64,000 nt of DNA, from assembly GCA_011364925.1 (NCBI GenBank), contig RDOA01000002.1, positions 1-64,000 on the forward strand. The letters run 5' to 3'. Numbering within the stretch: position 1 is the first letter of the stretch; each line of letters starts with the position of its first letter. Source of the DNA: Promethearchaeota archaeon. GTDB lineage: Archaea; Asgardarchaeota; Lokiarchaeia; Sigyniarchaeales; SOKP01. The position numbers and the translations under genes are program-made. The notes beneath the pieces were generated by a model. It saw nothing but the letters and a program-made list of their open reading frames with translations. It ran no database searches and had not been told where the DNA came from. Positions 309-4,040 of the stretch are shown in pieces.

Positions 309-1517
309 TTACTTAATAACAGTCGAGATTTTGCAATTTACTTTGTCCGTCTGTAATAACTTTATATTCTCTGGAACCTCGTTAAGAGTTATCTCTTTCG
401 TAATCATGGGAGTAACATCCATACCCGCTGCCATACAACTGATTACGTTAGGAAATGTGCCATGTCCTGAATGTCCTTGAGCGCCAACGATTCTTGCTCT
501 TCTAACTTGGAAATATTCTCCACACACTGGCATTCTCTGTTCCGCTCTGGCAACAACCACTACAGTACTATTAATTGCTTTGCATTCCCATATAGCATTT
601 TGTATATCTTCAGTACATATTTCAGGTAAACCTGCCGATTCAAGATAAAGAGCTGCTCCTTCATTGTCTGTAAATTCCTTAACCTTTTCTACAAAACTCT
701 CTTTTAGAGGATTTATGACGAAATCAGCACCCATTTTCTTAGCCAATAAAGCTCGAGGTTCTGATGGTTCTGAAATAACACATATTGCAGCTCCTGCCAT
801 TTTCAAAATCTTTATTGCCGCTAATCCAATTGGTCCCCCACCAAGAATTACTACATTTTCTCCCGGGCGAATTCCACCACCTCTCTCTATAACTGCATTA
901 TAGGCTACTGATGTTGGCTCAACTAAACTACCTATTTTGTAAATGTCTTTATATTTATCTTCTAATTTTTTTAAACTCCAACATAGTTTTGCCGGAACCG
1001 CAATATATTCTGCGAATGCTCCATCTATTGAGAAGCCAATCTCTTGTAGTCGTTCGCAGTGATTTGGATATCCATCACAACACGGTTTACATTCACCGCA
1101 CCATACCATTTCTTCAACTGTTACCGGTTCTCCTGTTTCGAAAGGTTTACCTGTTCTTTTACTTAATGCACGATTTCCTACTTCTACAATCTCTCCAGAA
1201 AATTCGTGACCAATCGTAACAGGAAAAGCAGTCAATCCTGGGTAATAGATATATCCATCTTCGTAGGCTTGGTTCATATGGACATCTGAACCACAGATTT
1301 TGTTCATTAAAAGATTTTTTTAATGAATTCCACAACGCTTAACTTTAATGAGTACTTCATTATCTTTAATTTTCGGTTTATCCTTATCAGTTAAACGAAC
1401 TTGTGGGTCTTTCCATACCTGTGAACCAAGATAAGTAAGTTTTCCCTTAATATCCTTAGACCCGATCTTAAAACTTGGCTTTGGATCCCATTTTGCACTT
1501 AATTCTACTGCTTTCAT
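309..1517 (-). CDS. iolM: Zinc-dependent dehydrogenase, scyllo-inosose 3-dehydrogenase (IolM)-like, interrupted by an in-frame stop
   Basis: Medium-chain zinc alcohol dehydrogenase oxidising a cyclic polyol ketone with NAD. The reading frame is read as 1517-1320, then TAA at 1322-1320, then open again in the same frame to 309. Joining without the 30-nt segment 1325-1296 gives 392 residues and restores the catalytic motif CGICGSDVH around residue 65. Other family marks are intact: GHE at 93-95, structural-zinc cysteines 130, 133, 136 and 144, and a GGGPIG dinucleotide loop near 185. The length and the whole sequence strongly recall Thermotoga TM0412 (about 395 residues). No lesion other than the 30-nt segment is visible, which argues against simple decay. 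The second half alone would start at ATG 1307 without a ribosome site and lack the first 64 residues. Confidence 0.8.
1296..1325 (-). other. 30-nt in-frame hairpin interrupter (element 1) in the iolM-like gene
   Basis: On the coding strand this segment sits between codon ATT (Ile, 1328-1326) and codon TGT (catalytic Cys, 1295-1293). Its second codon is TAA. It begins with the arm CATTAAAA, a five-base loop AAATC, and the arm TTTTAATG; with two flanking bases on each side the stem is a perfect 10 bp (1327-1303). A nine-base unpaired tail AACAAAATC follows. Removing exactly 30 nt restores CGI+CGSD. The last codon of the segment is ATC, also Ile, so takeoff at ATT and landing at ATC would suit a bypass. 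I see no bulge-helix-bulge pairing between segment and flanks. Confidence 0.75.
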
Positions 1518-1695: not shown

Positions 1696-3102
1696 TTACA
1701 GAATACTTGCTTTCTTTTTTTCATGCATTTCTGTAAGCTTTGCTCTATTTTTTTTAAGGCGTTCTCCTTTTATCGGAAATAGGAACATCCCAATTAAAGA
1801 CAGTGCAAGAACTATACCTGGATAAATTCCCATTAAAAATCTAAGACCCGCAATAACATCGACTCCCGGATTAGGGGTATAATCCATCCAATTTGTTGAA
1901 GTAAAAACTAGATTGATCATAACGAAATTAAAAATCATCGATAGTCTTATTAGAAAGTTGAGAACAGCATAGTATATACCAGAACGTCTTACTCCGGATG
2001 TAATTTCGTCTTCGTCAATGATCTCCGCGATGCACTGATCGTAGAAGTAAAGTCCACCACCTAAACCAAAACCAAAGAACATCATGAATATTAAAGCCAT
2101 CCAAAAATCAACCGAGTATGCGAAAAGCACAACTGATACTAACCATACAGAAATTCCTATTAATCCACAAAATCGAGCACCCTTTCTGACTCTTATTTGT
2201 TCCCATAATGGGGTTGAAACAGCAGCTACAAGAAAAGTAACTAAAAGGAGTATCCCAATCAATTCAGTGTCAGTAATACCAACAGCATATACAAAAAAAA
2301 GAGGAGCTAAGGTTGGCAAAATGTTAATCACTAACCAAGTACCGAGAGCTGGAAATAAGAACCATAAAAACGATTTGTGTTTGAAGGTAAATTTAATCGT
2401 TTTTATAAATGGCATCGCATTTTCTGCATCTTTAGAAAGATGTTTGGGATCTTTCACTCCCCATTTTAAAATTAGGAAGTAAAAAACAAATATGATGATC
2501 CCTGCTGCAATTCCGGTAATAAGATATTGAGACATAGTTATATCGACGTTAGCAGGATTGCTGTTTGTTATATCATCAATTATAAACGTAGGGAATGTTA
2601 ATGCAAACATAGTCGCTAGCAGAGTAAATATTATACGAAATCTTCCTGTTGAACTACGGGTCCTCATGTCAACAAACATTTCAGAGAATAGCGCATTATA
2701 ATTTAAGTTAAAAGCGGTATAGGCAAAATCAAATAATATCAGAATGATAAGGAAGTAGACGAAAACCAATTGATTTGTATCATAAGTTCCCGGAGGAGTA
2801 AACAAGAGAATCATTAAAATGCCGAGTGGTATGGTAGCACCAATCATCCATGGGATCCTTCTCCCCCATCTGCTTTTAGTTTTGTCAGAGAGGTATCCAA
2901 TTAATGGATCATTAACTGCATTCCACAAAGCCCAGAGTATAAAACCGATAGTCATTATAGGACTAGGAATGTCAATAACAGCGAAATAAAAAGTAAAAAC
3001 TAAAAATGAAAAAGTGTTAAGCGCCACATTATCTCCGACTTCTCCACAAGCAAAAGCTAATCTCGTGCCTAAAGACATTTTTTGAGGTCTTTCTTCATTC
3101 AT
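1696..3102 (-). CDS. GPH-family sugar:cation symporter
   Basis: Membrane transporter of the glycoside-pentoside-hexuronide:cation symporter family (MFS fold), 468 residues with about 12 hydrophobic segments. The diagnostic stretch after the second membrane span is present: WNAVNDPLIG then SDKTKSRWGRR near residues 60-85. I chose ATG at 3102 because AAGAAGTGAT lies just upstream; a TTG six codons earlier (3120) is possible but has no clear ribosome site. It lies between the inositol-type dehydrogenase and the divergently read epimerase, so it probably imports their sugar, polyol or uronate substrate. A second GPH transporter sits at 58353-59804. The substrate is inferred from neighbours only. 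Confidence 0.85.
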   Translation of the reverse strand: MNEERPQKMSLGTRLAFACGEVGDNVALNTFSFLVFTFYFAVIDIPSPIMTIGFILWALWNAVNDPLIGYLSDKTKSRWGRRIPWMIGATIPLGILMILLFTPPGTYDTNQLVFVYFLIILILFDFAYTAFNLNYNALFSEMFVDMRTRSSTGRFRIIFTLLATMFALTFPTFIIDDITNSNPANVDITMSQYLITGIAAGIIIFVFYFLILKWGVKDPKHLSKDAENAMPFIKTIKFTFKHKSFLWFLFPALGTWLVINILPTLAPLFFVYAVGITDTELIGILLLVTFLVAAVSTPLWEQIRVRKGARFCGLIGISVWLVSVVLFAYSVDFWMALIFMMFFGFGLGGGLYFYDQCIAEIIDEDEITSGVRRSGIYYAVLNFLIRLSMIFNFVMINLVFTSTNWMDYTPNPGVDVIAGLRFLMGIYPGIVLALSLIGMFLFPIKGERLKKNRAKLTEMHEKKKASIL

Positions 3103-3227
3103 ATAATCACTTCTTTTCAAAATATTTATAAATAAAAATAAATGGCTTTTTGATCTTTAAAAAGCTTTCTACTATTAACAAAACTTTGAGATTTAATTAG
3201 CTATCATTCTTATATTAAGTTAATATT

Positions 3228-4040
3228 ATGTTACTCAGCATAGTTTCAGGGCTCGAGGAATCTAAAAGTAGTCCAAATGATGTGAACAAGAAATTTACTT
3301 ATTTATGTCGATATCTTAAATCCTTGAGTTATGATGGGATTGAGTTAAGTCTTTTAGAACCTGAAAAAATAGATGTTAAGGGGATTATAGAGCTACAAAA
3401 CTCGTACGATATGAGAATTTCTGCTTTAGGAACTGGAAGTACTTTTATTCGTTTTGGATACTCTCTAGGCGATCACAGAGAACCAATTCGCAAAAAAGCG
3501 ATCGAAAGAGTCGAGAAATATATTGAATTCGCTCGAGAGACTCAATCTAAAGTCATTATAGGATTAATACGGGGACGTTATAAACACGAAAGTAATCCTC
3601 AGAAAGAACGCTTAAATATTATCTCTTCTCTTAAAGAATGTTGTTCGATAGCAGAAAACAGCGATGTTCAACTATTATTTGAACCAATTAATCGTTTCGA
3701 AATTGATTCTTATCACACAATTTCAGAATCTTTAAAATTGATTAAGGAAATAGGCTCAAGTAACTTGAAATTACTAATAGATTCTTATCACACCCACTTG
3801 GAAGAAGATCCCGTTTATATTTGGGAATACCTTAAAGAAGTCGTACATTACGTAGGTCACATTCATCTTGCTGATACAACACGTAGAGCACCTGGTTCAG
3901 GACATTTTGATTTTAAAACATTTCTAAATATTTTAAAAACTCATGGGTACTCTGAATTCGTTTCGATTGAAACTATAATGAAACCCTCTTTTGAATTAGT
4001 TGCTAAAAATTCAAGTGAATATTTAAGACAAATTTTATAA
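3228..4040 (+). CDS. iolO: Sugar isomerase/epimerase, 5-keto-L-gluconate epimerase (IolO)-like
   Basis: TIM-barrel enzyme of the xylose-isomerase-like/AP-endonuclease-2 superfamily, 270 residues. Metal and substrate residues are visible in order: EPINR (Glu about 150), DSYHTH (Asp about 183, His about 186), HIHLADTTRRAPGSGHFD (His about 210, Arg about 216) and the closing Glu in SIETI near 247. The sequence closely recalls Thermotoga TM0416, which epimerises 5-keto-L-gluconate to D-tagaturonate in inositol breakdown; even IGLIRGR and APGSGHFDF agree with what I remember of it. It is divergent from the GPH transporter and follows the IolM-like gene nearby. The superfamily is certain, the exact reaction probable. 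It ends one base before the convergent hydrolase. Confidence 0.75.
   Translation: MLLSIVSGLEESKSSPNDVNKKFTYLCRYLKSLSYDGIELSLLEPEKIDVKGIIELQNSYDMRISALGTGSTFIRFGYSLGDHREPIRKKAIERVEKYIEFARETQSKVIIGLIRGRYKHESNPQKERLNIISSLKECCSIAENSDVQLLFEPINRFEIDSYHTISESLKLIKEIGSSNLKLLIDSYHTHLEEDPVYIWEYLKEVVHYVGHIHLADTTRRAPGSGHFDFKTFLNILKTHGYSEFVSIETIMKPSFELVAKNSSEYLRQIL

Follow-up and report, generated by a model that had tools for sequence, protein, structure and literature searches.

A probable miniature bulge-helix-bulge intron in a Lokiarchaeal dehydrogenase gene, and similar short inserts in protein genes of one Asgard family

The window considered here, a stretch of 64,000 nt from a 3.9-Mb Lokiarchaeal MAG (contig C38), carries on its minus strand, at 1517-309, a gene assigned by profile search to the scyllo-inosose 3-dehydrogenase family (iolM; NF041097). 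A GPH-type transporter and an IolO-type epimerase adjoin it at 1696-4040, and this gene content suggests that the Lokiarchaeon has a cluster for inositol catabolism like that of Thermotoga. The sole interruption of iolM lies between CGI and CGSDVH, the rest of the gene being intact; the minus strand reads ...KRCGI, then H-stop-KNLLMNKI, then CGSDVH..., and the additional segment is the 30-nt, hairpin-forming sequence CATTAAAAAAATCTTTTAATGAACAAAATC (1325-1296). The initial annotation had described this arrangement, with both halves in one frame and the motif CGICGSDVH rebuilt upon removal of the insert, and the sequence and frames confirm it: the N-terminal half matches the IolM profile up to position 65 and the C-terminal half from position 65, with nothing missing between them. 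Its account of the insert itself, an 8-bp perfect stem that reaches 10 bp when the flanking TT/AA are counted and an in-frame TAA as the second codon, was likewise accurate.

The ends of the insert are ambiguous by 1–3 nt because ATT, ATC and ATA all encode isoleucine, and the register that agrees with the other introns described below is 1327-1298. The earlier observation that the codons bordering the gap (ATT and ATC) specify the same residue was correct, but it reflects this boundary ambiguity rather than a signature of ribosomal bypassing. With all features on the minus strand, exon 1 (1328..1517) comprises codons 1-63 plus the first base of the Ile-64 codon, ends in ...TGTGGAA and corresponds to positions 1-65 of the NCBIfam IolM profile, as also seen in the orthologue alignment. 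The putative intron (1298..1327) consists of T, TCATTAAAA, AAATC, TTTTAATGA, ACAA and AA, with the in-frame TAA inside it; the arms of its 9-bp inner hairpin occupy 1318..1326 (5′) and 1304..1312 (3′), and the tail ACAA (1300..1303) is the central-helix partner of exon 1. Exon 2 (309..1297) starts with TCTGTGGTTCAGATG, ends with the stop codon TAA at 311-309 and corresponds to profile positions 65-386, and the joined exons read GGA ATC TGT, or G I C. In the window copy the 9-bp stem is complete and the insert is 30 nt long. Its central helix is weak in the canonical register, with two of four pairs (GUGG/ACAA), the fewest among 32 introns; by inspection, an alternative with four pairs (UUGU/ACAA) needs a 5-nt bulge 1. 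A finder based on bulge-helix-bulge (BHB) geometry and a joined open frame returned no other convincing intron inside the window, and a homology search of the window's genome found no second iolM copy, the next match having ~35% identity.

The initial annotation had also proposed that the gene be compared in close relatives, and this comparison, extended to some 30 Loki orthologues of iolM, found an uninterrupted CGICGSDVH in about 25 of them and homologous hairpin inserts at the window's codon (site A) in four other relatives, which is more than chance. The stems at site A differ among relatives yet stay complementary, as in CTTTAAAG/TTTTAAAG and CTTGAAAG/CTTTCAAG. One of these inserts, that of L043, is 29 nt long and hence out of frame, so that only its removal or skipping would yield the protein. 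The same stretch (L043:1557-1748) holds another copy of iolM, truncated to codons 1-64, ~4 kb from the full gene. It ends exactly at splice site A, and recombination there may have left it behind. Inserts were also found in two genomes at a second site, GAQ^GHSG (the caret marks the insertion point), and in one of the two at a third, GSD^VH. Site A requires ~3 changes on the iolM tree, so there has been more than one gain or loss of the intron, or else transfer from lineage to lineage.

The L052 insert at GSD^VH comprises an outer helix, a 3-nt bulge (AUU), a central helix (UCGG/CCGA), another 3-nt bulge (AUG) and an inner hairpin, and would thus be predicted to fold as a textbook BHB. Cuts predicted after the second base of each bulge would give GGG TCG GAT GTC CAC, or GSDVH. 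This intron scored highest in a strict BHB scan of 390 kb of Loki DNA, where it and one intergenic, terminator-like match were the only hits to rise above shuffled sequences.

Similar inserts were found in other protein genes. The finder, which required BHB geometry and a joined open frame, recovered a 30-nt insert from a gene for an FAD-linked oxidase in the genome to which the window belongs, at a position where 30 relatives have none. The FAD gene of G026 is broken by a pair of out-of-frame inserts, 34 and 32 nt long, and returns to frame when both are taken out, while that of G024 has two 30-nt inserts free of stops. The latter (L159; ASYLKMHLEM and IRKGKPLLRE) would be annotated as ten-residue insertions, and the first of them has a 4-bp BHB central helix. 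G026 is rich in these elements, with further examples in ArgG (YSGGL^DTS), a class I aldolase (GV^DMGRNIFQ), CdhA and RNAP A′; the ArgG and aldolase inserts came from the structure scan, and these two genes were named by motif recognition rather than by profile search.

RNAP A′, EF-2 and CdhA were searched with curated families, independently of BHB geometry. The single-copy RNAP A′ gene carries inserts in six of 60 family genomes, at DEDG^LPIP and around GHFGH^IELARP, and in G149 (L302) there are two tandem introns of 30 and 35 nt separated by a micro-exon of ~5-6 nt. Insertions of ~1.5 kb with open frames, an intein-like size, were also observed in RNAP A′ near codon 456, in the NADFDGDEM region, in L301 (G141) and L304 (G162). 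Fourteen genomes have 30-nt, stop-containing inserts in EF-2, at four sites, one of them within AHIDHG^KTT, and no such insert occurs among the ~100 genomes listed outside the family. CdhA is interrupted in G026, G147 and G158; in G147 (L328) and G158 (L327), pairs of out-of-frame introns (29+31 and 32+31 nt) surround a 20-nt micro-exon, and joint removal alone gives FYMPICDMCCLCT[FY]GKC. Removal of the element rebuilds a conserved motif of the host gene, and TAA, TAG and TGA all occur as stops within the inserts. In one Asgard family, introns of this kind interrupt genes for EF-2, RNA polymerase, CO dehydrogenase and metabolic enzymes in at least 23 genomes; the intron counts are minimum values, since introns free of stops escape the search. 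In IolM, EF-2, RNAP A′, CdhA, ArgG and the aldolase, the insertion points coincide with the catalytic or binding motifs of highest conservation, as those of inteins and homing introns do.

The elements share a common architecture. Exactly 30 nt in 28 of 32 introns, the insert is laid out as one base, a 9-bp stem, a 5-nt loop, four bases that pair with positions −6 to −3 of exon 1 and then mostly AA, while an A occupies exon position −2 in all 32. Across 12 sites, pairing between exon and tail averages 3.71 of 4 at the BHB register, a figure that is optimistic because the register was chosen within a 1–2 nt ambiguity at some sites, and 1.0–1.7 at shifted registers; swapping the tails gives a null of 1.95 (SD 0.30), and none of 20,000 swaps reached the observed value. 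The gap to the null is large even so. At the RNAP A′ site, the wobble base of the glycine codon co-varies with its intron partner (A-U, G-U, U-G). EndA is known to cut after the second base of the bulges (PMC2738675), and applying this rule to 3-nt bulges recovers the conserved peptide at those sites where it was tested. The outer helix of the canonical hBHBh′ motif is clear only at L052 and FAD1, most sites having 0-2 outer pairs. It is, however, dispensable for relaxed motifs cut by hetero-oligomeric EndA (PMC2738675; PMC12397907), and most of the introns resemble this relaxed form.

Unbiased scans by geometry, using neither frame nor homology, lacked specificity. Across 400 kb of G034, de novo scanning found nothing exceeding shifted-geometry controls, and a scan for the 13-pair architecture did not discriminate in AT-rich DNA. 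When the sampled stretches were compared with one another by homology, the overlap in orthologues was small, and for this reason iolM alone showed inserts with stops; other dehydrogenase matches with apparent internal stops proved to be upstream extensions rather than inserts.

The enzymes that such introns would require are encoded in these archaea. The window's genome (G000) has two PF01974 proteins, encoded on contigs C29 and C22, that would constitute the catalytic and partner subunits of a two-subunit splicing endonuclease. The first has the expected Tyr, His and Lys, assigned by eye, and is closest to an archaeal tRNA-splicing endonuclease chain (PDB 3p1z; E 3e-34), which we take to be the Aeropyrum pernix enzyme; the second appears, again by eye, to lack the His and is presumably structural. 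One RtcB is encoded in the same genome. The endonuclease family is present in nearly all sampled Asgards, mostly in two copies, and a two-subunit EndA therefore does not account for the restriction of EF-2 introns to one family. The EndA/RtcB machinery would be necessary, without explaining why this family is intron-rich.

Taken together, the iolM insert is very probably a miniature archaeal pre-mRNA BHB intron, one of a near-uniform-length (mostly 30 nt) population in protein genes of this Lokiarchaeal family, whose cutting and ligation in the cell we infer. In the proposed mechanism, the intron's 5′ hairpin of 9 bp would stack on a short helix in which the last bases of exon 1 pair with the intron's 3′ tail; this fold would present bulges for cutting by the two-subunit tRNA splicing endonuclease EndA, and RtcB would then join the exons, restoring CGICGSDVH. 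Splicing of the window's own copy, with its weak motif, is presumed as well, but that it is efficient is held less firmly than the claim for the population. The initial annotation had left skipping, removal and fresh inactivation side by side. Removal at the RNA level is now strongly favoured over the other two: essential single-copy genes show the same architecture, certain copies fall out of frame, and the exon-intron pairing follows the rule of the splicing endonuclease.

Programmed bypassing, in which the ribosome hops over a hairpin between matching codons and the RNA stays uncut, is known from gene 60 of phage T4 and from the byp elements of Magnusiomyces mitochondria, and the elements described here are like those in being short, stop-containing hairpin gaps within coding sequence. 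The early stops and, at site A only, the synonymous codons flanking the gap (ATT/ATC, ATT/ATA) would suit such a mechanism. The take-off and landing codons, however, mismatch at most sites, including EF-2 (GAT/AAA, CAT/TAA) and RNAP A′ (CAT/TAA), the pairing of the insert tail with the upstream exon obeys the EndA register, and CdhA would require two hops around its 20-nt exon, leaving bypassing with only a slight chance of being correct. Marginally less probable again is the idea that a hairpin insertion has just inactivated iolM, its pieces now being a pseudogene or a downstream fragment only. The in-frame TAA, the presence of a downstream ATG and a BHB motif that is the weakest of the set are what such decay would predict. 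Set against these are a reading frame that, as the initial annotation stated for the rest of the gene, has no further stop or frameshift in 392 codons, a dN of 0.095-0.098 (~0.10) against a dS of 0.93-2.04 relative to the relatives, with differences mainly at third codon positions, homologous inserts in four relatives and the same element in essential single-copy genes. With a dN/dS of ~0.05-0.10, iolM is under purifying selection.

An artefact of metagenome assembly deserves mention since every genome in the data set is a MAG, but it is very improbable given that diverged inserts of common architecture occupy the same sites in many separately assembled genomes and contigs. Stop-codon readthrough, which would lengthen the catalytic loop of the protein by ten residues, would suit the many inserts of 30 nt, a multiple of three, and is hardly credible in view of inserts of 29, 31, 32 and 34 nt, tandem out-of-frame pairs, the use of all three stops, and the breaks that the added residues would make in the P-loop of EF-2 and in the catalytic zinc motif.

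The closest precedent for a miniature pre-mRNA BHB intron is that of crenarchaeal cbf5 (Watanabe 2002; Yokobori 2009, PMC2738675), which is 16–44 bp long, often has a relaxed BHB, is cut by a hetero-oligomeric EndA and shows patchy gain and loss. The Asgard elements are like it in being short, patchily distributed, located in protein genes and often relaxed, with a hetero-oligomeric EndA and with cutting, here predicted, after the second bulge base. Unlike the cbf5 intron, confined to one gene of Crenarchaeota, they occur in many genes of an Asgard family, at a nearly uniform 30 nt, with tandem introns and micro-exons, and in the most conserved motifs. They share with archaeal tRNA and rRNA BHB introns the predicted motif and the enzymes (EndA, RtcB), and differ in that the host is an mRNA and the outer helix is mostly absent because no anticodon stem supplies it. 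Spliceosomal and group II introns similarly interrupt protein genes, but the elements here are 30-nt hairpins without a ribozyme core or spliceosome signals, and no relation is claimed. According to a 2020 paper, that of cbf5 was still the one additional BHB intron on record for an archaeal mRNA (PMC7714728), and our search of the literature other than preprints likewise found cbf5 as the only protein-coding case and nothing on such introns in Asgard archaea. Within this literature, miniature pre-mRNA BHB introns had been documented essentially only in crenarchaeal cbf5.

These findings imply that annotation is prone to treat genes of these genomes as broken or absent, and they suggest that a tRNA-type splicing enzyme may routinely work on mRNA. 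They also make intron gain tractable to study in the archaea most closely related to eukaryotes. It is conceivable, though we would put the chances at somewhat below even, that one Lokiarchaeal family harbours non-autonomous BHB introns, uniformly 30 nt long and unrelated to spliceosomal introns, which propagate as a population and have been gained repeatedly in recent time, inserting into core protein genes at their most conserved motifs (the EF-2 P-loop, the RNAP A′ zinc region, the CdhA cluster motif and the dehydrogenase catalytic motif). If true, this would amount to a pre-mRNA intron system in the nearest archaeal kin of eukaryotes.
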